The notes under the pieces: model-generated
The model's database searches: none
What the model was told of the DNA's origin: nothing
Seen by the model: the letters and a program-made list of their open reading frames with translations, nothing else
Position numbers and translations under genes: made by a program
DNA from: Eubacteriaceae bacterium CHKCI004
Lineage (GTDB): Bacteria; Bacillota; Clostridia; Lachnospirales; Lachnospiraceae
Reading direction: 5' to 3'
Assembly: GCA_900016875.1 (NCBI GenBank)
Contig: FCNR01000016.1
Coordinates: 1 to 52,334 of the forward strand
Length of the DNA stretch: 52,334 nt
In this document: piece after piece, positions 510 through 39,621 of the stretch
Numbering within the stretch: position 1 is the stretch's first letter
Layout: each line of letters opens with the position of its first letter

Positions 510-1349
510 ATGAACAGGATATCCGGAGGCGGACATGGGCAGAGAGGATTCGGGCACAAACACGGCGGTTCGATTTTGTCAGTGGATTATTTTGCCTATG
601 CGTCTGCTTTAAGAAAATGGAATGCGTCCTTTAAGGTGGTATTTGCCATAATAAGCCTTTTGCTGTGCATTATACTGGACAATATTTATGTTTCCGCAGT
701 GGTGATTTTGGTAATGGGATATCTTACGGTGGTGATCGGGGGACTGTCTTTTCACCATTATATTTCTATGATGCTCATCCCTATAGTGTTTTTAATATTT
801 GGAAGCATTGCCATCGCCGCAGGGTTTTCACTGGAGCCGGTGGGACAGTATCAGTTCAGAGTGTTTCATCTGTTTTACATATATTGCTCAGATCATAGTC
901 TTCTGCGGGCGGCGGGGCTTATATTAAAGGCTCTGGGAGCTGTGAGTGCTCTTTATATGATGACGCTGACGACGCCTCTGGGGGAACTCATTACAGTGTT
1001 TAGAAAAGCGCATGTTCCAAAGGTGATCGTGGAATTGATGAACATGATATACCGTTACATTTTTATCATGATGGAAACGCACAGCCGGATGAAAAATTCG
1101 GCGGAATCCAGACTTGGATATGTGGATTTCAGAACTTCCTGCTATTCTTTTGGACAGGTGGCCAGTAATCTGCTGATTGTGTCACTGAAACGGGGAAATG
1201 ATTATTATAATGCTCTGGAGTCACGGTGCTATGATGGCGAGCTGCGTTTTCTGGAAGAAGAGAAACCGGTAAAAGGGAAACAGGTTGTGCTGGCGGCGGC
1301 GTTTGTACTGGTTCTGTTGGGAATCAGGATTCTGACCGGAAGTTGTTAA
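510..1349 (+). CDS. cbiQ: Cobalt ECF transporter T component CbiQ
   Basis: This is the transmembrane coupling (T) subunit of an energy-coupling factor transporter; it links the substrate-binding CbiM/CbiN to the ATPase in the membrane. The 279-residue protein has several hydrophobic segments, beginning near residues 40-75 and ending with one at the C terminus. Near residue 240 it has ESRCYDG, which matches the position of the Ala-Arg-Gly-type coupling motif of this family. The N terminus is Gly/His-rich (GGGHGQRGFGHKHGG), which might bind metal; that is inference. The start is preceded by AGGAG with good spacing. It is the first gene of a Q-O-M-N operon, whereas the commonly described order is M-N-Q-O. 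Cobalt rather than nickel is inferred from CbiN downstream. Confidence 0.88.
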   Translation: MNRISGGGHGQRGFGHKHGGSILSVDYFAYASALRKWNASFKVVFAIISLLLCIILDNIYVSAVVILVMGYLTVVIGGLSFHHYISMMLIPIVFLIFGSIAIAAGFSLEPVGQYQFRVFHLFYIYCSDHSLLRAAGLILKALGAVSALYMMTLTTPLGELITVFRKAHVPKVIVELMNMIYRYIFIMMETHSRMKNSAESRLGYVDFRTSCYSFGQVASNLLIVSLKRGNDYYNALESRCYDGELRFLEEEKPVKGKQVVLAAAFVLVLLGIRILTGSC

Positions 1350-1418
1350 GATTTCCGCGTTTTTGAATCAGCATTAATTTAAGAAAAAATTGGACAGATT
1401 AAGGCAGTGTGAAACAAG

Positions 1419-2288
1419 ATGAATTTGTTTAAGAAGAAAAAAGAACTACATAAGGAAACGGACGCCCCTATCTTAGAAGTACGGGATCTGCATTTTACCT
1501 ATAATGATGAAAAGCATGCCCTGAACGGTGTAGATCTGAAGATTTATGAAGGTGAAAAGATTGCTGTGCTGGGGTCCAATGGAGCGGGAAAGTCGACATT
1601 TTTTCTGAATATCAACGGTGTGCTGAAGCCTCATGAGGGAGAGATATTTTATCGTGGAGAGAAAATCACAAAAAAGAGATTAAATCATCTGCGAAAGAAT
1701 GTAGGTATTGTGTTTCAGGATGCGGATAATCAGATTATCGCTTCCACGGTTATGGCAGAGGTTTCTTTTGGACCCATGAACCTGAAGCTTCCCAGGGAAG
1801 AGGTGCTGCGCCGGGTGGACAAGGCTCTTGATTATATGAATATAACAGAGTTCCGGGATCGGCCTCCTCATTATCTGAGCGGCGGAGAGAAGAAACGTGT
1901 CAGTATCGCGGATATTATCGCCATGGAATCGGAGGTGATTATTTTTGATGAACCGACGGCAGCTCTGGATCCTCTCAATGCACAGATGCTGGAAGAGGTT
2001 CTCCACAAAATGGGGCAGGAGGGCAGGACGATTCTTCTGTCAACCCATGATGTGGATTTTGCCTATCGCTGGGCGGAGAGGGTGATCGTGTTCTGCCAGG
2101 GAAAAGTGATTGCGGACGATACGCCGCTTCGTGTATTTAAGCAGGAAGAGATATTGAAAAAGGCTAATCTGAAGCATCCGGTATTATTTGATGTTTATGA
2201 TATTTTGAGGGAAAAAGGGATAGTTCCTGACGGAGATTTGTATCCGAAAAATGTGCAGGAATTTGAGACAATGATGAAAAGCCTGTAA
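1419..2288 (+). CDS. cbiO: Cobalt ECF transporter ATP-binding protein CbiO
   Basis: This is the ABC ATPase that powers the cobalt ECF transporter at the inner face of the membrane. The 289-residue protein has Walker A GSNGAGKST (52-60), a Q-loop with VFQDADNQ (about 98-105), the signature LSGGEKKRV (153-161), Walker B with IIFDEPT (about 174-180) and the switch histidine in STHD (H210). All catalytic motifs are intact. A C-terminal extension of about 60 residues after the nucleotide-binding core is usual for CbiO/EcfA proteins. It lies 69 bases after cbiQ and 30 before cbiM in the same direction, consistent with one transcript. Confidence 0.93.
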   Translation: MNLFKKKKELHKETDAPILEVRDLHFTYNDEKHALNGVDLKIYEGEKIAVLGSNGAGKSTFFLNINGVLKPHEGEIFYRGEKITKKRLNHLRKNVGIVFQDADNQIIASTVMAEVSFGPMNLKLPREEVLRRVDKALDYMNITEFRDRPPHYLSGGEKKRVSIADIIAMESEVIIFDEPTAALDPLNAQMLEEVLHKMGQEGRTILLSTHDVDFAYRWAERVIVFCQGKVIADDTPLRVFKQEEILKKANLKHPVLFDVYDILREKGIVPDGDLYPKNVQEFETMMKSL

Positions 2289-2318
2289 TCAGGTAAAAAT
2301 AAAGGAAAAGAGGAGAAA

Positions 2319-3056
2319 ATGATGTTAAAAAGAAAAGAAAAGCTGAGTATCCTGGGGTTTGCTCTATTAGTTATGATCGCGGTGGCGCCTGTGTCAAACG
2401 CCATGCATATCATGGAAGGATACCTTCCGCTGGCTCATTGCATTTTGTGGATGGTCATCTGTATCCCATTTCTTGTGATTGGTCTGCTTAATATTAAGAA
2501 AACGCTGGGAGAGGACAGGAGAACGCTGATGCTTCTTGCTCTGACAGGAGCCTTTGTGTTTGTACTTTCTTCTCTGAAGATTCCGTCTGTAACCGGAAGT
2601 TGTTCTCATATGACCGGTACAGGACTGGGCGCGATTTTGTTCGGCCCTTGTGTGACCAGTATACTCGGAATCATTGTTCTGTTATTCCAGGCTGTTCTGC
2701 TTGCTCACGGCGGGCTGACTACTCTGGGCGCCAACTGCTTTTCCATGGCCATCGCGGGACCGATCCTGGCTTATGCGGTATATAAACTGTTAATAAAAAT
2801 GAATGTGAATAAAAAAGTGACAGTTTTTCTTGCCGCTTTCCTGGGAGACTTGTTTACATATTGTGTAACCAGCGTGGAACTGGCGATCGCTTATCCGTCT
2901 GAGGTTGGCGGATTCGGAGCTTCCGTTATAAAATTCCTTGGAATCTTCGCCACCACACAGGTGCCTCTGGCAATCATTGAAGGTATTCTTACGGTTGTCA
3001 TTGTGATCGCGCTGGAGACATATGCCAGAAATGAACTGAAAAGTCTGAGCTTTTAA
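2319..3056 (+). CDS. cbiM: Cobalt transporter substrate-capture protein CbiM
   Basis: This is the integral-membrane S component that captures cobalt. The first 28 residues form a signal peptide ending SNA, after which the mature chain would begin MHIMEGYLP. In this family the exposed N-terminal Met-His amino group forms the metal site, so the cleavage predicted here recreates the known ligand geometry. Several further membrane segments follow, including the conserved [12 protein letters not shown] stretch near residue 92. AGGAG (2311-2315) is 3 bases from the ATG at 2319 and 6 from a second ATG at 2322, so the true start may be one codon later. Confidence 0.92.
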
Positions 3057-3152
3057 CATATAAGAGATAATTCTGATGTGTGTTGAAATAATTAAGAATA
3101 CATCCGGTTTCCGGGCTGGTATGATCGGAATCCGGTGAAAGGGGAGTATAAA

Positions 3153-3518
3153 ATGAGTAAGAATACAAAAACAGTGATTATATTGCTGGTCATTGCGGTT
3201 TTGATCGCCATCGTACCTTTATTTGCGCTTCGCAACGCTGAATTTGGCGGCTCAGATGACGCGGGAAGCCAGATGATTTCCGAGATACAGGGAAAAGAAT
3301 ATGAGCCTTGGTTCACACCGGTGCTGGAAAATGCTCTGGGCGGGGAGCTTCCGGGAGAAGTGGAAAGTATGATATTCTGTGTGCAGACAGGTATAGGCGT
3401 CGGTATCGTTGCCTTTGTGCTGGGCCGTTATGTGGAACGGAAAAAATGGACGGATAAACTGCAGAAAGAGAATAAAGGGAATAACGTGGAGCAGAACGCC
3501 AAGACGGACATGGCGTGA
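3153..3518 (+). CDS. cbiN: Cobalt transport accessory protein CbiN
   Basis: CbiN is a small two-helix membrane protein that helps load cobalt into CbiM. The 121-residue protein has an N-terminal membrane helix (about 6-26), then an external loop with AEFGGSDD and the conserved YEPWF motif, then a second helix (about 80-98). These features are specific to CbiN and mark the operon as cobalt rather than nickel. The ATG at 3153 follows GGGGAG (3141-3146) with good spacing; a GTG at 3135 is in frame but is itself upstream of this site. The C-terminal tail is charged and Asn-rich. It is the last gene of the operon. Confidence 0.9.
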   Translation: MSKNTKTVIILLVIAVLIAIVPLFALRNAEFGGSDDAGSQMISEIQGKEYEPWFTPVLENALGGELPGEVESMIFCVQTGIGVGIVAFVLGRYVERKKWTDKLQKENKGNNVEQNAKTDMA

Positions 3519-3535
3519 TACATTTTCCACAAAAT

Positions 3536-3573
3536 AAAATCCGGAGGCCTTCACAGCCGCCGGATTTTTATTC
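3536..3573. terminator. Bidirectional terminator between cbiN and the LOG gene
   Basis: AAAATCCGG ... CCGGATTTTT forms a stem with A-rich and T-rich flanks on either side. It can end the cbi operon on the plus strand and the convergent LOG-family gene on the minus strand. Confidence 0.75.
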
Positions 3574-3589
3574 ATTTTATGAAACTCAA

Positions 3590-4144
3590 TTATTGTTCTA
3601 TCATTTCCTCGATGGCGTCTACGGTCTCCTCAGCTGTGCTGCACACCCGGAAAAGGGTCAGTGCCCGCTCGCGGATAAATCCCTTTTCGGTACATTCCTT
3701 CAAGAAAAGGATCATGTCGTCATAGTAGCCGTCTATGTTGTAAATTGCGATTGGCGCAGACTGCCTTCCCAGTTCCACCAATGTAAGTATCTGAAAGAAT
3801 TCATCAAAAGTGCCAATGCCGCCGGGAGCAATGACGAAAGCGTCAGCGTGGCTTTCCATGACATCTTTCCGCTGGCTCATGGTTTCTGTACGGATAATTT
3901 CCGTACAGTTTTTGTTGATGATTTCAAATTCATCCATAAAGTTTGGTACAACGCCGATGACGGTTCCGCCTTCCCGCGCGGCGCCGCGGGCACAGGCGCC
4001 CATAACTCCGCTGGCGCCTCCGCCGTATATAATCTGGTGGTGACGACGGGCAATCTCTTCTCCAAGCTTTTCTGTTTCTGTGATAAATACAGAGTCGATC
4101 TTATCGCTGGCGGCTCCGTATACGCATATGGTCATTTTACCCAT
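3590..4144 (-). CDS. LOG family protein (TIGR00730 type)
   Basis: It belongs to the LOG/lysine-decarboxylase-like family, whose characterised members are cytokinin-riboside-5'-monophosphate phosphoribohydrolases; in gut bacteria the true substrate is unknown. The 184-residue protein has a Rossmann-like fold with GGGASGVMG (41-49), a conserved SQRKDVM (90-96) and the family hallmark PGGIGTFDE (107-115). I place the start at the sixth codon of the longest frame because GGAGGT lies inside the first codons of that frame, 7 bases before this ATG. It is monocistronic, converges on cbiN and is divergent from the corrinoid activator. Confidence 0.85.
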   Translation of the reverse strand: MGKMTICVYGAASDKIDSVFITETEKLGEEIARRHHQIIYGGGASGVMGACARGAAREGGTVIGVVPNFMDEFEIINKNCTEIIRTETMSQRKDVMESHADAFVIAPGGIGTFDEFFQILTLVELGRQSAPIAIYNIDGYYDDMILFLKECTEKGFIRERALTLFRVCSTAEETVDAIEEMIEQ

Positions 4145-4203
4145 AATCAAGACCTCCATTTCTGCTGTTGTCTGTAAAACAAATTCAGCATATATGTATT
4201 AAA

Positions 4204-4232
4204 ATTATACCATTCAAAAGAATGAAAAACAA
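4204..4232 (-). promoter_or_regulatory. Promoter of the LOG-family gene
   Basis: Read on the minus strand, TTGTTT (4232-4227) and TATAAT (4209-4204) are 17 bases apart, about 60 bases upstream of the chosen start. Confidence 0.6.
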
Positions 4233-4328
4233 CAGCAGACAAAGTCTTTTCATGAAAAACATATATTTTTCATATATTTGCCCGTCCGCAGAAAAGCCGT
4301 GAAATCTGGAAATATTTTAATCAGGAAG

Positions 4329-4356
4329 TTTACAAATACGACGGCCATTGTATAAT
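4329..4356 (+). promoter_or_regulatory. Promoter of the corrinoid activator gene
   Basis: TTTACA (4329-4334) and TATAAT (4351-4356) are 16 bases apart. Transcription would begin near 4363, which excludes the TTG at 4348 as the protein start and supports the GTG at 4408. Confidence 0.65.
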
Positions 4357-4407
4357 AACAGAAAAAAGATGACAGGAAGTAAGTATCTGAAAAGAAGGAG
4401 GCAGAAT

Positions 4408-6144
4408 GTGAGATATCATATAAGATTTATGAATCAGAATACAGAGATTTTTGTGGAGAGGGGAACGTTGGCTCAGGCATGCGCCGGAGCAGGTTATCCG
4501 CTTAATCTGGTCTGCGGAGGAAAGGGTACTTGCGGTAAATGTAAGATTAAAGTGAAAAGAAACGGAGTACTGACGGAGGTTCTGGCCTGCAGGGAGAAAG
4601 TGCGGCAGGATGAGGAGGTGTATCTGGAAGAAAATGACTATATTCATGAAGGAAATGTTCTCACAAAAAGCAGTTTGTCCGGCGTTGGTTTTTGTCCGTC
4701 CGTGAGGAAGGTGTATCAGAGAAAAGAGGAGCTCATGCCGGAACACAGCGGCTCTTTTCTGGCGTGTGCGGGCATTCCGGTCATGCGGAAGTTTGCTGCG
4801 TTCAGTGCGGATTATGATTTTGAAGGATGTACTTTTGTATACTATGAGGACAGAATCATCGACGTACAGGAGGGAAACACGGTAAATGTTTGTTATGGAG
4901 CGGCAGTTGATATAGGAACCACCACCGTCGTGTGCTATATTTATGATCTGGCAAATAATCATCTTGTGACGACAAAATCAGGGCTTAATAAGCAGATTAT
5001 TCATGGGGCCGATGTGATAGCGAGAAATGCTTTTGCCCGGGAGTGTCCGGAGAATCTTGAAGAATTACAGCGGCTCATTCAGGAAACGATCAATGGGATG
5101 CTTGATGAGGCGATGGAAGAGAATCCGCAGATCAGGGAGAATCTTTACCATATGGTTATCTGTGGCAACAGCACCATGCAGCATTTGTTTTACGGGCTGA
5201 ATCCGGCAAATCTTGGCGTGAGACCCTTTGCTAATATCACGGCGGAACCGGTCGTCAGCAGCGCAAAAGAGGCGGGTATAAACATTGCGCCGGAGGGTGT
5301 GGTGGAATTCCTGCCGCTGCTGGGAGGCTTTGTGGGAGCAGACACGGCCGCTGTCCTGCTGACGCTGGAAGAGGACGAAAAAAAATATATCATGGTAGAT
5401 CTTGGAACTAATGGGGAAATAGGCGTGGGAAACTACGACAGATTTCTTATTGCATCCACTGCCTGCGGGCCGGCATTGGAGGGAGGAAATATTGCCTGTG
5501 GTATGAGAGGCGCCGCGGGAGCCATTGAAAAAATCTCCATTGATGGTGATGAGGTCAAACTGAAAGTGATTGGAAATACCAGTCCCGCAGGATTATGCGG
5601 TTCTGCTGTCGTCGACGCTGTGGCGGAGCTCCGGAAGGTGGGACTCATTGATGAAACAGGTCTTCTGCTTTCCGCTGAGAAGTATGAAAAGACACATCCG
5701 GGAAGCCGTCTCTGTGAGAGACTTCGGGAAGTGGGAGAATATAATATGGCATTCTTTTTTACGGATGGAGAAAACGCAGTTTATCTTAGCCAGAAGGATA
5801 TCCGGCAGATTCAGCTTGCCAAAAGCTCTATCTATTCCGGCTGTATGACTCTGCTGGCAGAGTATGGCATGACGCCTGATGATGTGGATTCTCTGATACT
5901 GGCAGGCGCTTTCGGCAACTACATAGATATCGATAATGCTCTTTCTATTGGCATGCTGCCGCCTGTAGCCAGAGAAAAGATCCTGTCTGTCGGCAACGGC
6001 GCTGGCAAAGGGATACAGGCATTGCTTCTGGATTCTTCCTTCCGCAGAAAGCTGCAGAAGATACGGGCAAACAGTACGCACATTGAACTGGCAGACAACC
6101 AGAACTTCATGGAGCAGTATATAATGAATATGAATTTCAGATGA
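4408..6144 (+). CDS. RACo-like reductive activator of corrinoid proteins (2Fe-2S + ASKHA ATPase)
   Basis: This family uses ATP hydrolysis to drive electron transfer that re-reduces inactive cob(II)alamin to cob(I)alamin in corrinoid methyl-transfer proteins. In the 578-residue protein, residues 1-80 form a plant-type ferredoxin domain with ligands C36, C42, C45 and C61 (C-x5-C-x2-C-x15-C). A linker follows, then a DUF4445/ASKHA ATPase domain starting near residue 167 with DIGTTTV and containing later glycine-rich phosphate loops (VDLGTNGE, LAGAFGN). The GTG start at 4408 is 6 bases after AAGGAGG (4395-4401); an overlapping ATG is followed directly by TGA. No methyltransferase or corrinoid protein lies beside it, so its partner is encoded elsewhere. 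The nearby cobalt transporter is thematically consistent. Confidence 0.85.
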   Translation: MRYHIRFMNQNTEIFVERGTLAQACAGAGYPLNLVCGGKGTCGKCKIKVKRNGVLTEVLACREKVRQDEEVYLEENDYIHEGNVLTKSSLSGVGFCPSVRKVYQRKEELMPEHSGSFLACAGIPVMRKFAAFSADYDFEGCTFVYYEDRIIDVQEGNTVNVCYGAAVDIGTTTVVCYIYDLANNHLVTTKSGLNKQIIHGADVIARNAFARECPENLEELQRLIQETINGMLDEAMEENPQIRENLYHMVICGNSTMQHLFYGLNPANLGVRPFANITAEPVVSSAKEAGINIAPEGVVEFLPLLGGFVGADTAAVLLTLEEDEKKYIMVDLGTNGEIGVGNYDRFLIASTACGPALEGGNIACGMRGAAGAIEKISIDGDEVKLKVIGNTSPAGLCGSAVVDAVAELRKVGLIDETGLLLSAEKYEKTHPGSRLCERLREVGEYNMAFFFTDGENAVYLSQKDIRQIQLAKSSIYSGCMTLLAEYGMTPDDVDSLILAGAFGNYIDIDNALSIGMLPPVAREKILSVGNGAGKGIQALLLDSSFRRKLQKIRANSTHIELADNQNFMEQYIMNMNFR

Positions 6145-6191
6145 GAAAGGCAAAGTTATAAGCAATAGAAGCTGTATACACTCGATTTTTC

Positions 6192-6220
6192 TTGCAGTTT
6201 CCAGGGTTTGAATATATAAT
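6192..6220 (+). promoter_or_regulatory. Promoter upstream of the pyruvyl transferase-like gene
   Basis: TTGCAG (6192-6197) and TATAAT (6215-6220) have ideal 17-base spacing. It may be the main promoter of the sulfation block. The following leader (to 6340) is AT-rich and has no other clear signal. Confidence 0.6.
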
Positions 6221-6340
6221 AAATTAACGTGTAATAATTATGTAATAATCTATAACACAAAAGTGAAAATACCGCACAGAGACCTGCAGATGCCGGAGAG
6301 GGACATGGCGGCGGCAGGGCGGTATCTGAAAGGAGTAAAT

Positions 6341-7741
6341 GTGAAAAAAATATTGATGCGCTCGGCTATGCCTTTTGGAGAAGAACGTACCATTTCCGAG
6401 ATCCTCATAGAGAATCTTATTGGAAACAACACCGGTAATCTGATTTTCCAGTCCAGCCTGGCGCGGGCAGTGATGACGGGAGATACAGAGATTACCACCA
6501 TAAGGACAGATTTGATATATTCAGAGGAACAGGTGGAACGATGGAACGCGGAATATGATATGTTTCTGATTCCGCTGGCCAATGCCTTCCGCACCACATT
6601 TAAAAAAGAACTGAAAATGCTCACAGACCTTGTGAAGCGTCTGACCATCCCTTGTGTGGTCGTGGGCGTGGGACTTGCCAGAAGCCTGAGGTCAAACAAA
6701 TGGACCTTCCTTCACGATGAGGAATCCACCGCTTTTGTGCGGGCGGTTCTGGAGAAGTCTTCCATCATCGGCGTGAGGGGTGAGATCACAGCAGAATATC
6801 TGAAACAGAAAGGGTTCCGTCCGGAGAAGGATTTCACTGTCATCGGATGTCCCTCACTGTATATGTTTGGAGATGCTCTTCCGGTACCGAAGCAGACGGA
6901 GCTCTCTCCAAAGTCAAAGGTGACCATGAATTTTAAAGCAGGTCTTCCGGAGAATCTGTATACTTTCCTGCGGGAGCAGGGAGAACGTTTTGACCATTCT
7001 GTTTTTATTACGCAGGTGATTGAGGAGATAAGAACGGTCTACGTAGGAGAACCGTATTTTACTGAGGAAAATAAAGATAAGATTCCGGCAGATTATCCTA
7101 TGCATTTCGATCACCCGATGATGCAGGATGACCGTATCGTCGGAGTTTTGGATATTGATTCCTGGTTCAATTTTCTCAGTCAGCAGGATTTTAACTTTGG
7201 TAGCCGTATTCACGGAAATATTGCCGCGGTTCTTTCTGGTGTTCCGTGTTATATTTATGCCGGGGACTGCAGAGTAAAAGAACTGGCGGATTTTCATCAT
7301 ATCCCGTGTATAACAGCAGGTGATCTCGAAGACGGAATGGATGTGATCGACATGTATGAGAAGGCAGATTACAGCCGTCTGCATGCAGGACATAAAGATC
7401 GTGTGAGTCATTATCTTGATTTTCTGGACGTCAATAAGGTGCCGCGGCTTTCCCGGGAACAGCTCAGTGGAGCGGACACGCCTTTTGACCGTATGAATGC
7501 GCAATTGAAGAAACCGGGACTCATTCATCCGTTTCCGGTAGTCGGCACGTTACAGCAGGAGCGGCGTCTGGCAGAATATTTCGGAAAATACCGCCGGGAA
7601 AGTATGGAAACTCTCCAAACAGCGGATAATCAGAGTAAGAAGATCGCTTCTTTAAATAAGGAGAAGGAAGTGCTTCAAAGGGAGCTGGCGGAGATAAAAA
7701 ACAGCCGCCTTTATAAAATAAAATCTTTCATGAAGCGTTAA
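6341..7741 (+). CDS. Polysaccharide pyruvyl transferase family protein
   Basis: Family members (CsaB/WcaK type) transfer pyruvate ketals from phosphoenolpyruvate to sugars of cell-surface polymers; the substrate here is unknown. The 466-residue protein has an N-terminal Asn/Gly-rich segment (NNTGNLIFQ, near residue 27) and the family signature FGSRIHGNIAAVLSGVPC (about 287-304) that holds the conserved Arg and His. The last 50 residues form a short coiled coil and a basic tail (SRLYKIKSFMKR), as in many bacterial glycosyltransferases. The GTG at 6341 follows AAGGAG with good spacing; the longest frame begins 26 codons earlier without a comparable site. It is followed 196 bases later by cysD, which suggests surface-polymer modification as a shared theme. 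Confidence 0.78.
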   Translation: MKKILMRSAMPFGEERTISEILIENLIGNNTGNLIFQSSLARAVMTGDTEITTIRTDLIYSEEQVERWNAEYDMFLIPLANAFRTTFKKELKMLTDLVKRLTIPCVVVGVGLARSLRSNKWTFLHDEESTAFVRAVLEKSSIIGVRGEITAEYLKQKGFRPEKDFTVIGCPSLYMFGDALPVPKQTELSPKSKVTMNFKAGLPENLYTFLREQGERFDHSVFITQVIEEIRTVYVGEPYFTEENKDKIPADYPMHFDHPMMQDDRIVGVLDIDSWFNFLSQQDFNFGSRIHGNIAAVLSGVPCYIYAGDCRVKELADFHHIPCITAGDLEDGMDVIDMYEKADYSRLHAGHKDRVSHYLDFLDVNKVPRLSREQLSGADTPFDRMNAQLKKPGLIHPFPVVGTLQQERRLAEYFGKYRRESMETLQTADNQSKKIASLNKEKEVLQRELAEIKNSRLYKIKSFMKR

Positions 7742-7862
7742 CATTTCAGTGATATAATAATTGCGACGGGATGCGGCAGGTGTCCCGGAATCGTTAATAC
7801 CAGAGGCAGGGGCCGGGAAAGCTCCTTCTCTGTTGTTATATATTTTACTATTAATATTTTCT

Positions 7863-7906
7863 GACGCCGGGAGCCTGTGGAAAATGTACAGGAGCCCGCA
7901 GGCGTC
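7863..7906 (+). promoter_or_regulatory. Long hairpin in the cysD leader
   Basis: GACGCC (7863-7868) pairs with GGCGTC (7901-7906), then GGG with CCC, then CCTGT (7874-7878) with ACAGG (7888-7892), with a symmetric AG/AG internal loop and a GCA bulge. No T-tract follows, so it is not an ordinary terminator. It ends about 32 bases before the cysD start codon, leaving the AGGAGT site (7925-7930) free. It could stabilise the transcript or act as a cis-regulatory element; no known riboswitch consensus is recognised. Confidence 0.55.
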
Positions 7907-7937
7907 CCGACAAATCTACAGAATAGGAGTAAGATTC

Positions 7938-8840
7938 ATGAGTGATATGACACATCTTGATGCGTTGGAAGCGGAAGCGATATACATCATGCGTGAGGTT
8001 GTAGCAGAATGTGAGAAGCCGGTAATGCTGTATTCCATCGGTAAAGACTCTTCTGTCATGCTGCATCTGGCTTTAAAGGCATTTTATCCGGAAAAACCGC
8101 CGTTTCCGTTCCTTCACGTGAATACCACATGGAAATTTAAGGAAATGATTGAATTCCGCGATAAAACAGCAGAAAAATACGGCCTGGAAATGATTGAATA
8201 TATCAATCAGGACGGCGTTGCCCAGGGAATCAACCCTTTTGACCATGGCGCAGCATATACAGATATTATGAAGACTCAGGCGTTAAAGCAGGCTTTGGAT
8301 AAATACGGATTTACCGCAGCTTTCGGCGGCGGCCGGCGTGACGAGGAGAAGTCCCGTGCCAAGGAGCGTATATTCTCTTTCCGTAATTCCAGCCATGCAT
8401 GGGATCCAAAGAATCAGCGTCCGGAAATGTGGAAGCTTTATAATACACAGATTCATCAGGGTGAGGAAATGCGTGTTTTCCCAATTTCCAACTGGACAGA
8501 GTCAGATATCTGGCAGTATATTAAGAGAGAAAATATTGAGATCGTACCGTTATATTTTGCAGCGGATCGTCCGTTTGTCAGAAGAGACGGCAATATCATC
8601 ATGGTGGATGATGACAGAATGCGTCTGAGAGAGGGCGAGAAGATTGAACATGGAAGTATTCGTTTCCGTACTCTCGGATGCTATCCGCTGACCGGTGGTA
8701 TTGAGAGTACAGCAAATACTCTGGATGCTATCATCGATGAAACTCTGAGTGCTGTATCGTCAGAACGTACCAGTCGTGTGATCGACAGTGACGGCGGAGC
8801 AGCCAGCATGGAAAAGAGAAAGAGGGAGGGTTACTTCTAA
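7938..8840 (+). CDS. cysD: Sulfate adenylyltransferase subunit 2 (ATP sulfurylase small subunit)
   Basis: CysD catalyses adenylation of sulfate to APS, together with the GTPase CysN. The 300-residue protein is full length for the family (about 300). It has the N-type ATP pyrophosphatase loop SIGKDS (33-38), [11 protein letters not shown] near residue 72 and the [15 protein letters not shown] block at about 130-145. The ATG at 7938 follows AGGAGT; the longest frame adds 59 residues that do not belong to the family and overlaps the leader hairpin, so it is rejected. The stop is 1 base before the cysNC start, so the two are translationally linked. Codons such as CGT, GGT and ATC are frequent, which suggests strong expression. 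Confidence 0.95.
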
Positions 8841-8841
8841 A

Positions 8842-10668
8842 ATGAATAGTCTTCTTAAATTTATTACCTGCGGAAGTGTGGACGACGGTAAGTCCACATT
8901 AATCGGACATATGCTTTATGACGCCAAGTTATTATTTGCAGATCAGGAAAAAGCGCTGGAACTGGACAGCAAGGTAGGTTCCAGAGGCGGCGCCATCGAT
9001 TATTCTCTCCTGCTTGACGGTCTCATGGCAGAGAGAGAACAGGGAATTACTATCGACGTGGCATACCGCTATTTCACAACGGAAAACCGTTCTTTCATCG
9101 TGGCAGATACGCCGGGACATGAAGAATATACAAGAAATATGGCGGTAGGCGCTTCCTTTGCGGATCTGGCAGTTATTCTCGTGGACGCTACTCAGGGTGT
9201 TTTGGTACAGACAAGAAGACATACAAGAATCTGTTCTCTTATGGGTATCAAACATTTTGTGTTCGCTGTTAATAAGATGGACCTGATCCATTATGACGAG
9301 AACCGTTTTGATAAGATTCAGAAAGAGATCAAGATGATGATGGGAGAGTATGATTATAACTCCATCAAGATTCTTCCGGTTTCCGCTACAGAAGGAGATA
9401 ACGTCACAGTAAAATCCGGCCATATGCCTTGGTATAAAGGCGAGTCTCTGCTGACTTATCTTGAGAATATAGATGTTCATGAAAATCCTTCCGAGACAGG
9501 ATTTACTATGCCGGTTCAGCGTGTGTGCCGTCCGGACCGCACATTCCGTGGATTCCAGGGTCAGATCGAGACTGGCGAGATTCGTGTGGGCGACGAGATC
9601 ACCGCTCTTCCTTCCAATGAGAAGGCTGTGGTAAAAGGTATCATCGACTGTGGTAAGGAAGTGGAATCTTCCGATTCCGGCCACGCTGTAACCATCTCTC
9701 TCGACAGAGAAGTAGACGTATCCAGAGGCTGCGTGCTGGCAAAGGATACAAGTCCGGTTGTGGGGAATCTGTTTACGGCGGAGCTGCTGTGGATGGATGA
9801 CTCTTATCTGGTTGCCGGAAAGAACTATCTCTTAAAGCTTGGCACAAAGATGGTTCCGGCAGTTGTTATGAATATCAAATATAAGATTGACGTCAACACA
9901 GGAAATGAAGTGCATGCCGATACGATTTATAAGAATGAGATTGCAGTTTGTGATATCTCCGTTTCCGATAAGATCGTGTTTGACAAATTCAAGAAGAATC
10001 AGGCTCTTGGTTCCATGATTCTCATTGACCGTATCACAAACATGACTTCCGCCTGCGGCGTTGTGATGCATTCTCTGCGCCGTACGGATAACCTGACCTG
10101 GCATGAGATGGATATCACGAGAGAGTTCCGTGCTCAGCAGAAAGGACAGCAGCCGAAGACTATCTGGATGACCGGTCTGTCCGGCTCTGGTAAGTCCACA
10201 TTGGCTAATGAACTGGAGAAACGTCTGGCAGCTCTCGGCAAGCACACTATGCTTCTGGACGGTGACAACGTACGTATGGGTCTTAACAAGAACCTTGGCT
10301 TCAAGGAGGCTGACCGTATTGAGAACATCCGCCGTATCTCCGAGGTGGCGAAACTGATGAATGATGCCGGTCTTATCGTCATTACCTCCTTCATCTCCCC
10401 GTATGTGAGAGACAGAAGAAAGGCAAAAGAGATCATCGGTGATGACAGTTTCATTGAAGTATATGTGAGCACACCTCTGGAAGAGTGTGAAAAACGTGAT
10501 GTGAAAGGTCTGTACAAGAAGGCCAGAGCCGGCGAGATTCCGAACTTCACAGGAATTTCCAGTCCTTATGAAGTACCGGAGCATCCGGATGTGACCATAG
10601 ACACCAGCGCTATGCCTCTGGAGGACTGCGTGGACGCGCTTCTGAAACAGATTGAGGGACAGATCTAA
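8842..10668 (+). CDS. cysNC: Bifunctional CysN-CysC: ATP sulfurylase GTPase subunit fused to APS kinase
   Basis: The N-terminal part (about 1-420) is the CysN GTPase that drives sulfate adenylation; the C-terminal part (about 435-608) is APS kinase, so CysD plus this protein would convert sulfate to PAPS. G1 is GSVDDGKST (11-19), G3 DTPGHE (89-94) and G4 NKMD (144-147). The APS kinase has GLSGSGKST (445-453), followed by the conserved DGDNVRMGLN segment. All motifs are intact in both halves. The ATG at 8842 follows the cysD stop directly, with AGGGAGGG upstream. Its TAA overlaps the ATG of the sulfotransferase gene (TAATG), a strong sign that PAPS made here is passed to that enzyme. Confidence 0.95.
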   Translation: MNSLLKFITCGSVDDGKSTLIGHMLYDAKLLFADQEKALELDSKVGSRGGAIDYSLLLDGLMAEREQGITIDVAYRYFTTENRSFIVADTPGHEEYTRNMAVGASFADLAVILVDATQGVLVQTRRHTRICSLMGIKHFVFAVNKMDLIHYDENRFDKIQKEIKMMMGEYDYNSIKILPVSATEGDNVTVKSGHMPWYKGESLLTYLENIDVHENPSETGFTMPVQRVCRPDRTFRGFQGQIETGEIRVGDEITALPSNEKAVVKGIIDCGKEVESSDSGHAVTISLDREVDVSRGCVLAKDTSPVVGNLFTAELLWMDDSYLVAGKNYLLKLGTKMVPAVVMNIKYKIDVNTGNEVHADTIYKNEIAVCDISVSDKIVFDKFKKNQALGSMILIDRITNMTSACGVVMHSLRRTDNLTWHEMDITREFRAQQKGQQPKTIWMTGLSGSGKSTLANELEKRLAALGKHTMLLDGDNVRMGLNKNLGFKEADRIENIRRISEVAKLMNDAGLIVITSFISPYVRDRRKAKEIIGDDSFIEVYVSTPLEECEKRDVKGLYKKARAGEIPNFTGISSPYEVPEHPDVTIDTSAMPLEDCVDALLKQIEGQI

Positions 10669-12134
10669 TGCCAACACTGTATATACACATGGGAACGCCG
10701 AAGACGGCGACCACATCCATTCAGATGTTTTTCGTGGAGAATCAGGAGCGTTTCCGGGAAAAGGGATACAGCTATCCGCTGCTGGATTTCGTGTATCCCC
10801 ATGTGGCCCACCGGAGGAACGGACATTTCCTCGTGGGAAGGGTGTATTATCCCGACAAGACAGAAAATGTGGCCATGGAAGAGGAACTGTGGGAGCGGGG
10901 CCTCGATATGGTCCACAAGGAGTTTGAGAAATATCCTAACGTCATTTTATCCGACGAGAATATCTGGCACGCCTCTCTCGGCTCCAAGTTTGAGTTTTGG
11001 GAGAAGATAAAGGCCGACGCCAAAGAGCATGGATATGATATCAAGGTCATCGTGTACCTGAGACGCCAGGACGGCATGGCCAATTCCTGGCTCAGCCAGC
11101 AGGTGAAGGAAGGATGGAACACCAACGCCTGCATCAAATGGGTTTCCTTCAAGAAAAAAACCCGGAGGATTGTGCTCCACTACTATAATCATCTGGAGAA
11201 GATCGCCGGAGTCATCGGGAAGGAAAATATCATTGTCCGCGTATTTGAGCGGGATAAGTTTAAAGGAAATGGAAACACTATTTTTTCTGATTTTTTGGAG
11301 GCAGTTGGATTGGAATATAAAGACGAATATCAGATAACAGAAGCAGAAGCGAACAAATCCCTCACAGGAAACAGCCAGGAGATCATGCGGATCGTCAACT
11401 CCGTGCTTCCGGATAATCCGAGGGTTGTCGCTTTCATGAGAAATGCCGCCATGACCTGCGAGGAATTGAAGGATGCGGAGAACAATTTCACCATGTTTTC
11501 CAAGGAAGAACTGGAAGCATTTCTGAAACGGTATGAGAAATGTAATGAGTCCATCGCGAAGGAATATCTGGGCCAGGATGAGCCTCTGTTCAGCACCAAG
11601 ATAAAAGAAGGGGAATGCTGGACGCCGCAGAACCGGTTCATGTATGAGGACATCATCCGTTACTTTGCGGACGTGGTGGTAAGGCAGCAGGAATGCATTG
11701 ATAAGATGACGCAGGATATGAAGCGTCTGAAGGAGAGCCGCATCGAGGCTGTAAAGCAGTACGCCGAAGAGTTTCACCTGGAAAAACAGGAAGAGATGGC
11801 GGCTCAGGGAATCACACCGGAAGAAGAAGAGAAGTTTGAGACTGTCAGCGAGGTGGTATTAAACCAGCATAAAGACATAGAGGACATGGCCGAGACCACC
11901 AAACGTATTGAGACGGCAGACAATCGTATTCATGCGTTGAGAACAGAGAATCTTCTTTTGAAAAATGAGATTTTTGATTTGAAGAGAGAAAATGCTGAGA
12001 TTCGAAAAGAAGCGAAGGACAGAGACCGGGAGACAAAGAAAGAGCTTGAGAAGATGATAAAAGAGCTGAGAGAAGATGTCTTCTTCTATAGGCTTAAAAG
12101 AAAAATCCGGCATATTTCGGGGAAAGATCAGTAG
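10668..12134 (+). CDS. Sulfotransferase-like protein with C-terminal coiled coil
   Basis: The protein probably transfers sulfate from PAPS to a surface glycan or lipid; the acceptor is unknown. The 488-residue protein begins with a strand and a PAPS-type phosphosulfate loop, MGTPKTATTSIQ (8-19), characteristic of sulfotransferase-fold proteins. A second conserved-looking stretch, KVIVYLRRQDGMANSWL (about 126-142), fits the 3'-phosphate-binding Arg/Ser region. Residues about 340-475 are strongly charged and predicted coiled coil, ending in a basic tail (RLKRKIRHISGK). No signal peptide is seen, so it acts in the cytoplasm or at the inner membrane face. Its ATG overlaps the cysNC stop by one base. 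The sulfotransferase assignment rests on the P-loop-like motif plus the PAPS-synthesis context. Confidence 0.8.
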   Translation: MPTLYIHMGTPKTATTSIQMFFVENQERFREKGYSYPLLDFVYPHVAHRRNGHFLVGRVYYPDKTENVAMEEELWERGLDMVHKEFEKYPNVILSDENIWHASLGSKFEFWEKIKADAKEHGYDIKVIVYLRRQDGMANSWLSQQVKEGWNTNACIKWVSFKKKTRRIVLHYYNHLEKIAGVIGKENIIVRVFERDKFKGNGNTIFSDFLEAVGLEYKDEYQITEAEANKSLTGNSQEIMRIVNSVLPDNPRVVAFMRNAAMTCEELKDAENNFTMFSKEELEAFLKRYEKCNESIAKEYLGQDEPLFSTKIKEGECWTPQNRFMYEDIIRYFADVVVRQQECIDKMTQDMKRLKESRIEAVKQYAEEFHLEKQEEMAAQGITPEEEEKFETVSEVVLNQHKDIEDMAETTKRIETADNRIHALRTENLLLKNEIFDLKRENAEIRKEAKDRDRETKKELEKMIKELREDVFFYRLKRKIRHISGKDQ

Positions 12135-12136
12135 AG

Positions 12137-13585
12137 ATGAACACGAAAAAATTTATGTCAATGATTACGACCATGTTAAAAATCGGTTTTATAGGATTTG
12201 GGGGCGGTACCGCCCTCATTCCTGTTATAGAAGAAGAGATTGTTGAGAAAAACAAGGTCGTGACGGAAGAACAATTTAACAACGAAGTCATGATTGCCAG
12301 CATCACTCCGGGAGCGCTCCCGGTGGAGATTGCCAGCGGCATCGGATATCAGACCGCCGGAAATAAGGGTATGATGGCCGCAGCCTCTGCCATGGCATTT
12401 CCGGGGGCTTTTCTTACAGTATTATTCCTCGTCATTTTTTCCAGCGCGGGAGAGACGCTGAAAACACAGATCAGCTATTTGGCGGTGGGTATTTCCGCCT
12501 ACATAATCCTCACGCTGATCAAATACTGTACAGGCACATTACAGCAGGCAAAAGACAGAAACGAGTCCATCCTGTATTTTATCATTATGATGGGAGTCTT
12601 TCTTCTCTCCGGGGAAGCAAGCATCTATCAGATACTGGGACTGTCTATCACGCCGATTTTTGGTATTTCGACTATTCAGATACTGGGAGCGGCTTTTTTT
12701 GTCATTCTGTTCACGAAAGGACAGCCAAGGGATGTAAAGCGTGCCGCTCCGGCGCTCATTATTGCTGTCCTGTATTTTCTGTGCGCCGGAAAAGCTCATA
12801 TTATTCCTGAGGTGCTGCAGCCATTTTTCGTAACATTGATGATTGTTTTATCGGTTATCGGTATGGTGCAGACTCTTATGGACAGTCAGCAGAAACGAGC
12901 TTTTGCCGGAAAAGCTCTGGCTGTTTCTCTCGTCTGCTGGGGATTATTTACGGTAGTTCTGTCTTTCCCGGCCATCATTTTTCTGTCGGGAACAGCCCGC
13001 TATATCGGAGATGGATTTCTGTCATCTGTCTTATCCTTCGGAGGAGGAGACGCTTACTTGTCTGTGGCGCAGGGAATGTTCGTGGACAGCGGCATGATCA
13101 GCTACCAGGACTTTTACGGCAGCATTGTTTCTGTTGCCAATGCCCTGCCGGGTTCCATCCTCTGCAAGATTCTTTCCGGATGCGGCTACGTCCTGGGCTT
13201 TGAGCGCGGCGGTTCCGTAGTCTTGGGGCTGTTCATGGCCATCTGCGGCTTCGCCTGCAGCGTAGCGGCTTCCGGAGCCATCGTCATTGTCGTCCGGATG
13301 ATCTACGACAAATACGAAAACCTTCGCATCTTCGCGGTGGTCAAACATTTCATCCGTCCGATCATCTCAGGACTGCTCCTGAACGTGGCCTTGTCCCTCT
13401 ACCTTTCCGGTATTTTGGAAATTGCCAGCGGGGGACTGACCATGACGATCCTTTCTATTATTACGCTGATTGTCATCGCTCTGGTCTTTGCCCTGGAACA
13501 GAAAAAAGACGTGCACCTGCTCTGGAAGATTCTGCTGTCAGCGGCCATATCATTCGTGGGATGCAATGTGTTTGCGGGGATGTAA
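12137..13585 (+). CDS. CHR-family (chromate/sulfate-type) anion transporter, two-domain
   Basis: ChrA-type proteins are membrane transporters named for chromate efflux; chromate and sulfate are structural analogues. The 482-residue protein has about 10-12 hydrophobic segments and two CHR half-domains. The first has GFGGGTALIP (17-26) and a TPGALPVEIA stretch; the second has SFGGGDAYLSVAQG near residue 300. Many Firmicutes encode the halves as two small genes, so this fused long form is notable. It starts 2 bases after the sulfotransferase stop and is surely co-transcribed with it. That context makes sulfate uptake for PAPS synthesis at least as likely as chromate resistance. The direction of transport cannot be told from sequence. 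Confidence 0.82.
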   Translation: MNTKKFMSMITTMLKIGFIGFGGGTALIPVIEEEIVEKNKVVTEEQFNNEVMIASITPGALPVEIASGIGYQTAGNKGMMAAASAMAFPGAFLTVLFLVIFSSAGETLKTQISYLAVGISAYIILTLIKYCTGTLQQAKDRNESILYFIIMMGVFLLSGEASIYQILGLSITPIFGISTIQILGAAFFVILFTKGQPRDVKRAAPALIIAVLYFLCAGKAHIIPEVLQPFFVTLMIVLSVIGMVQTLMDSQQKRAFAGKALAVSLVCWGLFTVVLSFPAIIFLSGTARYIGDGFLSSVLSFGGGDAYLSVAQGMFVDSGMISYQDFYGSIVSVANALPGSILCKILSGCGYVLGFERGGSVVLGLFMAICGFACSVAASGAIVIVVRMIYDKYENLRIFAVVKHFIRPIISGLLLNVALSLYLSGILEIASGGLTMTILSIITLIVIALVFALEQKKDVHLLWKILLSAAISFVGCNVFAGM

Positions 13586-13705
13586 AATAAGGGATATAAG
13601 ATAGGTGATATAAGACAACACGAAGGCGATAAACGGCAAGCAATAAAAAATAGGAAATTAAACAACAGGAATAATCAATAGGAATAATAAGTAGAAATAA
13701 TAAGG

Positions 13706-13787
13706 AGCCCCTGGTGGTGATATGTGCTTTTCATACTGGCTTTACCTGGTAGAAAGTATATGTCAAAGACTGCCGGGGGCTTTTTTT
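13706..13787 (+). terminator. Long branched terminator or terminator-ended small RNA
   Basis: AGCCCC (13706-13711) pairs with GGGGCT (13776-13781) and is followed by a run of T. Inside it, a second long helix pairs bases 13719-13732 with 13752-13764, using several G-U pairs, and a short ACC/GGT tip closes the top. The whole is about 76 bases, much longer than the other terminators in this window. Confidence 0.65.
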
Positions 13788-13967
13788 GTGGGTGATGATA
13801 TGCAGGTATTATCAAAGGGTAGATGCAGAGCAGCTTTTGGATAAGGCGGCTTTTCCCAAAAATGTGGAAAATTATTTGTATTTTGTGATATAATATAAAA
13901 AATATAATTAATATAATTATGGAAATGGGCAAAAATGTAAAAAGATATAAAAATTCCCAATAATGTG

Positions 13968-38645: not shown

Positions 38646-38718
38646 CAAGTTTGTTGCATGGTATAAATGATAAATTTTTGACAATATAAAAATGAATCGT
38701 AAAGTGAGAGGAGAAATC

Positions 38719-39621
38719 ATGGTAGTAAAAAATGTTTTAGATATGATCGGCAATACGCCTCTGGTTGATTTGAGTCCAACCATGGGCTGCCAGATTTACG
38801 CCAAGGCGGAATTTTTGAATCTGGGCGGAAGCATCAAGGATCGTGTTGCCAAAAACATGATAGAAGCCGCCGAAAAGGAAGGCAAACTGAAAAAAGGCAT
38901 GACCATTGTGGAGCCGACCTCCGGCAACACGGGAATCGGTCTGGCGCTCTGCGGCGTCCGTATGGGCTATAAAGTAATTATCGTCATGCCGGAAAATATG
39001 AGCGAGGAGCGAAAGAAAATCATTCGCGCTCTTGGCGCGGAACTGGTGCTTACTCCGGCAAAATTAAGTCTTGACGGTTGTGTGGCGGAAGCCAACCGGA
39101 TTGTGTCACAGTCTGATGACTATTTCATGCCGCAGCAGTTTGAAAATCCGCACAACCCGGAGATTCATTATCTGACCACGGCACCGGAGATCTATGAAGC
39201 GCTGAACGGCAAGGTGGACATTTTCGTTTCCGGCCTCGGCAGCGGCGGAACCCTCCAGGGCATCAGCCAGTATCTGAAAGAAAAGAATCCAAATTTGATT
39301 GTCTGTGCCGTGGAGCCAAAAAATGTATCCGCTCTCCTGGGCGACGAGCCGGGACTGCACCAGATACAGGGTATCGGCGACGGATTTATCCCGGCGGTAC
39401 TTGACACTTCTTTGATCGACGAGGTTGTCACCGTCACAGACGACGACGCCATGAACACTACCAGAGAGCTGGCAAAGGTACAGGGACTCCTCTGCGGAAC
39501 CTCCTCCGGCGCCAATATCTGGGCATGTAAGAAGATGGCAGAGAAATACGGCAAGGACAAAGTCATCGCAACCGTTCTGCCGGACAGAATGGAGCGGTAT
39601 TTCAGTACCGGACTTCTGTAA
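38719..39621 (+). CDS. cysK: Cysteine synthase A (O-acetylserine sulfhydrylase)
   Basis: This PLP enzyme makes cysteine from O-acetylserine and sulfide. The 300-residue protein has the PLP lysine K40 in GGSIKDRVA, the substrate loop PTSGNTGIG near residue 73, the glycine-rich phosphate loop GLGSGGTLQG near 175, and GTSSGAN near 260 with the Ser that binds the PLP ring nitrogen. The length is near the usual 300-310. The ATG at 38719 follows GAGAGGAG; an ATG nine codons upstream has no site. No serine acetyltransferase gene is present. It precedes serC by 209 bases, which links serine synthesis to cysteine synthesis. Confidence 0.93.
   Translation: MVVKNVLDMIGNTPLVDLSPTMGCQIYAKAEFLNLGGSIKDRVAKNMIEAAEKEGKLKKGMTIVEPTSGNTGIGLALCGVRMGYKVIIVMPENMSEERKKIIRALGAELVLTPAKLSLDGCVAEANRIVSQSDDYFMPQQFENPHNPEIHYLTTAPEIYEALNGKVDIFVSGLGSGGTLQGISQYLKEKNPNLIVCAVEPKNVSALLGDEPGLHQIQGIGDGFIPAVLDTSLIDEVVTVTDDDAMNTTRELAKVQGLLCGTSSGANIWACKKMAEKYGKDKVIATVLPDRMERYFSTGLL

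Follow-up and report, generated by a model that had tools for sequence, protein, structure and literature searches.

Does a compact group of sulfate-activation genes in Eubacteriaceae bacterium CHKCI004, a gut bacterium of the genus Anaerobutyricum (Lachnospiraceae), serve the synthesis of cysteine, or does it serve sulfation? The group consists of cysD, cysNC, a sulfotransferase-like gene and a CHR-family transporter gene, in this order, on contig FCNR01000016.1 (C80) of assembly GCA_900016875.1. The entire contig of 52,334 nucleotides is referred to as the window; it belongs to a 3.99-Mb genome with a completeness rating of 99.98 percent. The four genes very probably form a self-contained sulfation module that does not feed cysteine synthesis. 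Evidence from the own genome and comparison with other genomes both give good support to a role of the cassette in sulfation dependent on 3'-phosphoadenosine 5'-phosphosulfate (PAPS), and not in cysteine synthesis.

The four-gene unit

An earlier note on this DNA had described the four genes as one tightly packed unit with a pyruvyl transferase-like gene ahead of it, and this layout was confirmed. The intergenic gaps are 1, -1 and 2 bases. cysD ends at 8840 and cysNC starts at 8842; the last A of the cysNC stop codon TAA (10666-10668) is the first base of the next ATG (10668), which gives the one-base TAATG overlap; and the ATG of the CHR gene at 12137 is found 2 bases past the stop codon of the sulfotransferase-like gene, which ends at 12134. 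A 31-base string spanning the junction of cysNC and the sulfotransferase-like gene has a single occurrence in the window. The features of the region are the following.

6341-7741, + strand: gene of the polysaccharide pyruvyl transferase family (PF04230), an accessory that accompanies 5 of the 8 genus cassettes seen
7938-8840, + strand: cysD, ATP sulfurylase small subunit (family model matches)
8842-10668, + strand: cysNC, fusion of the large ATP sulfurylase subunit with adenosine 5'-phosphosulfate (APS) kinase (family model matches)
10668-12134, + strand: predicted PAPS-dependent sulfotransferase, 488 aa (motifs, profile, fold search, context)
12137-13585, + strand: CHR-family transporter with both PF02417 halves in a single frame, interpreted as a sulfate importer
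13703-13788, + strand: long hairpin with a T run behind it, which may terminate the unit; the ends are approximate (fold of 13695-13795)

CysD and CysN make APS, and APS kinase converts APS into PAPS. CysD scored 510 bits with NF009214 (cut-off 413), CysNC 852 bits with NF004035 (cut-off 715), and the kinase part of CysNC 249.6 with TIGR00455 (cut-off 138.7). The APS kinase domain also matched PF01583 at 5.8e-68, and the GLSGSGKST motif reported earlier is intact.

Sulfation or cysteine synthesis

No APS or PAPS reductase was found in the own genome. A PF01507 search of the genome gave no CysH-type protein; the matches were CysD and one weak PP-loop protein located on an apparent mobile element. 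AprA was not detected in the genome by TIGR02061, and there was no match at E <= 1e-20 to the AprA of another genome, G185, used as a query. The assimilatory operon of G185 has the order CHR-AprA-AprB-CysD-CysN-sulfite reductase, and APS kinase was not found in G185.

The same contrast was seen among 397 Lachnospiraceae genomes. CysD was over the cut-off in 75 of them, and APS kinase was over the cut-off in 43 of these 75. The G185 AprA query matched 37 of the 75, with two weak matches among them (28-31 percent). Only five CysD-positive genomes had both APS kinase and strong AprA, and two had neither (p 2e-13); this p-value, like the other co-occurrence p-values given below, ignores the relatedness of the genomes. 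PAPS-making Lachnospiraceae can be told from sulfate-assimilating ones by comparing APS kinase with AprA. Strong AprA was present in 4 of the 22 genomes carrying relatives of the sulfotransferase-like protein, each time apart from the APS kinase locus. A second CysD accompanies AprA in G319, G103 and G286; in G171 the only full CysD accompanies AprA, and APS kinase stands alone. G319, a member of the same genus as the window, has an assimilatory place with AprA-AprB-CysD-CysN-Cys/Met PLP enzyme, and a second place with the cysD-cysNC-sulfotransferase-CHR cassette.

The third protein as a sulfotransferase

The product of the third gene is likely a PAPS-dependent sulfotransferase, as judged from motifs, a profile match, a fold search with weak E-values and genomic context. 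The catalytic domain covers approximately residues 1-320 and is followed by a Lys/Glu-rich extension, probably a coiled-coil as judged by eye, and by a basic C-terminal tail. A tail of +4 or more was found in 24 of 35 family members; the tail is compatible with membrane attachment, but proves nothing. The N-terminus starts right at a P-loop-like motif without a signal segment, and the protein is therefore expected to act in the cytosol.

The 35 sequences (alignment A3) are the window protein and 34 relatives, 26-94 percent identical, of which four come from named records (two Candidatus Anaerobutyricum metagenome-assembled genomes, Eubacterium sp. An11 and a metagenome-assembled Eubacteriales genome) and 30 from other loci of the family search; the alignment does not include a 148-aa fragment in L055, the members in G135, G171, G192, G381 and G395, or several second copies. 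Residues G9, K12, T13, T15, Q19, N25, L55, E97, W100, Y130, R132, Q134, R191, F209, N229 and R241 were invariant in this alignment, and S140 nearly so. The GTPKTATTSIQ motif, named in the earlier note, corresponds to residues 9-19. We take GTPKTxTT, in the GTPKTxTTxIQ stretch, to be the 5'-phosphate site of PAPS sulfotransferases. R132 and S140, eight residues apart, would presumably make up their R-x7-S 3'-phosphate site, with the spacing of SULT1E1. K12, R132 and S140 were also invariant in all sequences of a second alignment (A5, 10 sequences), five of which are distant proteins from viral contigs (22-28 percent identical).

The profile of the family was compared with that of three proteins adjoining cysD in G060 (L110), one of which was scanned and clearly is a PF00685 (Sulfotransfer_1) protein. 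A score of 40.2 (E 1.4e-4) was obtained, against at most 24.6 for 100 column-shuffled versions and 12.7 for an APS kinase profile, but the match covered only residues 119-293 and not the P-loop end, with an hhalign probability of 53. The AlphaFold model relied on was the second one, built with 10 sequences (pLDDT 73.8, pTM 0.78). Structure prediction had been proposed earlier as a check of the assignment, and its outcome was divided: the first three Foldseek rows were PAPS enzymes, namely an Anopheles SULT and two human NDST1 chains with PAPS, but no match reached E <= 0.001 and TM-scores were at most 0.45. SULT, NDST, 3-OST or retinol dehydratase chains made up 16 of the 50 PDB rows among the matches listed, retinol dehydratase having the same fold as the sulfotransferases.

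Other results speak against the assignment or add nothing to it. The protein matched no Pfam or NCBIfam model; for this reason it was filed as sulfotransferase-like by motif, profile and context, and was assigned to no named family. PF00685 was reached by only one of the 35 family members, at 1.6e-4, and an NCBIfam scan of all 35 gave chance-level names only. Zeta-toxin and other P-loop kinases ranked close behind the sulfotransferases with the second model. The first model, built with five close sequences, was poor (pLDDT 54.8); its only three matches under E 0.001 were two zeta-toxin chains and a tRNA kinase, followed next by two sulfotransferases. PDB sequence searches with the protein and with A3 gave nothing relevant, and two viral-contig rescans gave back the query's own record only. 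Sub-threshold Pfam matches to Sulfotransfer_1, _3 or _4 in 4 of 10 proteins were not counted as evidence.

Distribution and co-occurrence

The Lachnospiraceae genomes were searched with profile A2 at E 1e-5, and the genus and the phylum with A3 at 1e-10. The family was found in 22 of the 397 Lachnospiraceae genomes (19 genera), in 15 of 24 genomes of the genus, and in 4 of 398 genomes of the phylum sample, one of these being the own genome (G000). CysD was present in 22 of 22 family-positive genomes, compared to 53 of the 375 others (Fisher p 7e-18), and APS kinase in 22 of 22, compared to 21 of 53 other CysD-positive genomes (p 2e-7). The sulfotransferase gene was located at most 5 kb from APS kinase in 15 of the 22 genomes. 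Some points weaken this association: in the remaining seven genomes APS kinase was on another contig (six) or 20.9 kb away (one), and the profile was built with sequences of a genus that itself accounts for two of the 22. The 21 genomes with APS kinase and no family member may use other sulfotransferases; in one of them, G060, the PF00685 protein adjoins cysD.

Conservation of the gene order, a check suggested earlier, was borne out: the core order cysD-cysNC-sulfotransferase-CHR was found in eight genus genomes, the window included, and the pyruvyl transferase gene precedes it in five. In G406 (L149:3877-9271) a distantly related sulfotransferase (34-35 percent identical) occupies the slot between cysNC and CHR, with cysD 94, cysNC 88 and CHR 61 percent identical. 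Judged from the sequences, this suggests that the choice of acceptor can be swapped while the sulfate supply stays.

CysQ-type genes are expected where the by-product 3'-phosphoadenosine 5'-phosphate must be cleared. CysQ-like (inositol-monophosphatase-type) genes were found in 5 of 20 regions chosen by hand (L103-L122), namely L110, L112, L115, L119 and L120. Such a gene adjoins cysNC in L045, L110, L112, L115 and L120, lying between cysNC and the sulfotransferase gene in L045, and is found two genes upstream of cysD in L119. Against the proposed module, CysQ is absent from the window cassette (the own genome was not searched for CysQ). L119 (G022; 1235-8222) combines PAPS genes and the CysQ-like gene with an NKWYS capsule-family gene and a PEP mutase/cytidylyltransferase fusion, and is possibly a locus for a sulfated or phosphonate capsule.

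The CHR protein

The CHR protein matched PF02417 at 1.3e-37 in two stretches, and matched NCBIfam models for chromate efflux, all under their cut-offs. Its gene neighbourhood was studied in 24 hand-picked genomes with the lower-scoring type of CHR protein, mostly a single frame of about 380-530 aa; the set includes shorter frames in G209 and G171 and a broken pair in G028, and left out split pairs and one weak match (G349), whose linkage was not counted. A one-frame CHR gene was located at most 6 kb from CysD or APS kinase in 17 of the 24 genomes, six of which have AprA and no APS kinase and 11 of which have APS kinase. Since CHR is common to assimilatory and PAPS-making loci, and assimilation needs import, the protein is best read, from sequence and gene context, as a sulfate importer. 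In L049 and L117, both of one genus, a gene for an NMT1-type substrate-binding protein follows the sulfotransferase gene in place of CHR, and in L049 an ABC ATPase gene comes after it. The analysis points to CHR-family proteins as sulfate importers, and not chromate pumps, in this group of gut bacteria. In G171 (L103:14777-16981) the sulfotransferase gene, a short CHR half and the stand-alone APS kinase are found beside a glycerophosphotransferase gene, with the full CysD and AprA on another contig.

Proposed mechanism and acceptor

In the proposed mechanism the CHR protein would import sulfate. CysD and the CysN half of CysNC would make APS and the fused APS kinase would make PAPS; this is established chemistry of the families, and the domains are intact. 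The third protein would then use PAPS to sulfate an acceptor, either in the cytosol or on the inner side of the membrane, as suggested by motifs, profile, fold and co-occurrence.

The leading candidate for the acceptor, with about an even chance, is a wall or surface polymer precursor that is linked to the membrane; otherwise it would be a lipid or a small molecule. A polymer is favoured because 6 of 33 sulfotransferase loci, in 22 genomes, have a teichoic-acid-type (PF04464) or pyruvyl transferase (PF04230) gene within 6 kb, where 0.56 would be expected under uniform placement (p 3e-5), in a test of two Pfam families that used rounded genome sizes and a 6-kb limit set after the loci had been seen, and that counted the window's own pyruvyl transferase. 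In G168, five tandem sulfotransferase copies are followed by pyruvyl transferase, CDP-glycerol glycerophosphotransferase, IspD-type cytidylyltransferase and epimerase genes, and glycerophosphotransferase genes are close to the sulfotransferase gene in G171, G152 and G195 (two loci). The earlier note had proposed sulfation of a surface glycan or lipid; the sulfation part found good support, and a surface acceptor is plausible in view of the pyruvyl transferase neighbour and the six loci.

A more specific proposal is put forward tentatively: part of the Lachnospiraceae may sulfate teichoic-acid-like wall polymers, by means of a sulfotransferase family without a curated model that works at the inner membrane face, is often in tandem, is interchangeable at one slot and is fed by its own PAPS factory and CHR sulfate importer. 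If so, sulfated wall polymers would be a trait of scattered gut Firmicutes. If the acceptor is at the surface, sulfation could also matter for how gut commensals bind mucus, are recognised by lectins and adsorb phages.

Alternative explanations

Ordinary sulfate assimilation, in which PAPS or APS would be reduced to sulfite and then to sulfide for cysteine, with the third gene unrelated, is very improbable. The earlier note had argued against it from the lack of PAPS reductase and sulfite reductase in the window. No sulfite reductase is present in the window, but genome-wide this does not hold: contig C42 (L009:9268-10893) encodes a 541-aa, sulfite-reductase-like NIR_SIR protein, 50.7 percent identical (BLAST) to the sulfite reductase of the G185 assimilatory operon, and the window itself has a cysteine synthase-like gene (38692-39621, PF00291). 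Both fit assimilation. The argument from sulfite reductase therefore fails. A stronger one is that, in a genome with a completeness of 99.98 percent, the searches gave no CysH-type protein, no AprA by TIGR02061 and no AprA of the Lachnospiraceae type. The rarity of APS kinase together with strong AprA (5 of 75) points the same way, and cysteine assimilation was rejected as close to refuted on the reductase result, while the preference for sulfation drawn in the earlier note was upheld by this result and by the contrast with AprAB loci. The C42 gene is flanked by symporter-like and guaA-like genes (labels by eye).

For the transporter, it is improbable that CHR exports chromate, another anion or sulfate and is in the operon only by accident. 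The idea has its basis in characterised CHR proteins, described as chromate exporters (PMC2751784), and in the matches to chromate-efflux models, though under the cut-offs. It is opposed by the linkage to sulfate-activation genes in 17 of 24 genomes, in two metabolic contexts of which one is assimilatory, and by the binding protein gene that replaces CHR after the sulfotransferase gene in L049 and L117. A small molecule or lipid as acceptor, for example a steroid or bile-type compound, is the less favoured but a serious possibility. The Bacteroides gene set BT_0411-BT_0416 follows the same logic, and its sulfotransferase BT_0416 makes cholesterol sulfate (PMC9417993); the third protein has no signal segment and would be cytosolic; and 27 of the 33 family loci have no PF04464 or PF04230 gene within 6 kb, most scanned neighbours in L044, L047, L050 and L057 looking like housekeeping genes. 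Among the scanned cassette neighbours (before 16706), no glycosyltransferase or polymer export gene was found and only one PF04230 gene. On contig C66 (L041:8255-13609), two sulfotransferase paralogues are interspersed with genes for a histidine kinase and two regulators, one of them an OmpR-type response regulator, and thus adjoin a two-component system and not polymer genes, which also counts against a polymer. The preference for a wall or surface polymer was kept in view of the pyruvyl transferase gene adjoining five of eight genus cassettes, the excess of loci near polymer-type genes and the gene order in G168.

Surroundings of the unit

The pyruvyl transferase gene matched PF04230 at 2.7e-16 (profile positions 87-277 of 280) and is the sole PF04230 match in the own genome at E <= 0.001. 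The best start by eye is the GTG at 6341, preceded by AAAGGAG. It is separated from cysD by a 196-base spacer with one weak terminator-like site, and co-transcription of the two genes is for this reason uncertain. A cobalt transporter with CbiQ, ABC ATPase and CbiM genes (510-3056) is encoded upstream of the cassette, as are a LOG-type protein and a RACo-like ferredoxin activator (4348-6144); the transporter genes adjoin the cassette in relatives too. The C66-type two-component block recurs in several genus members, and in G398 and G397 it immediately precedes the region that corresponds to the left end of the window. The hairpin at 13703-13788 (-44.8 kcal/mol, z-score -6.35) is situated between CHR and a PDDEXK_2 transposase-family gene, the downstream neighbours of the cassette being PDDEXK_2 and AAA ATPase genes. 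The start of a 16S rRNA gene was observed at the contig end (51994-52334).

Comparison with known systems

The earlier note knew of no description of this gene set as a sulfation system in Lachnospiraceae, and in agreement with this no such system of Lachnospiraceae, Anaerobutyricum or gut Firmicutes was found in titles or abstract openings among the matches listed, a search that covered few subscription papers. Within the Lachnospiraceae, the PF00685 protein beside cysD in G060 and its two neighbours resemble the second half of the window catalytic domain by profile match; unlike that PF00685 protein, the window protein reaches no Pfam model. The NodPQ-NodH system of rhizobia reportedly has PAPS enzymes of the CysD and CysNC types that serve a single sulfotransferase. 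The window cassette is like it in this respect, by description and not by sequence, but NodPQ-NodH acts on Nod factor, unlike the window cassette. BT_0411-BT_0416 of the gut commensal Bacteroides thetaiotaomicron likewise combines a putative sulfate importer and putative PAPS genes with an adjacent sulfotransferase; the acceptor there is cholesterol, and the likeness is one of gene logic alone (PMC9417993). The description compared here names, unlike the window cassette, no CHR protein (PMC9417993). Vibrio sp. KMM 8419 has a polysaccharide cluster for a sulfated capsule in which cysC, cysN and cysD each occur as a second copy, together with sulfotransferases, a combination described by its authors as a hallmark of sulfated polysaccharide synthesis (PMC11641403). 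That cluster is large and Gram-negative, whereas only one polymer-type gene adjoins the window cassette. The kind of system is thus known; what is new is a sulfotransferase family without a curated model, the proposed CHR importer and the Lachnospiraceae setting, and a sulfotransferase-like family without a model gains a testable function in butyrate-producing gut bacteria.

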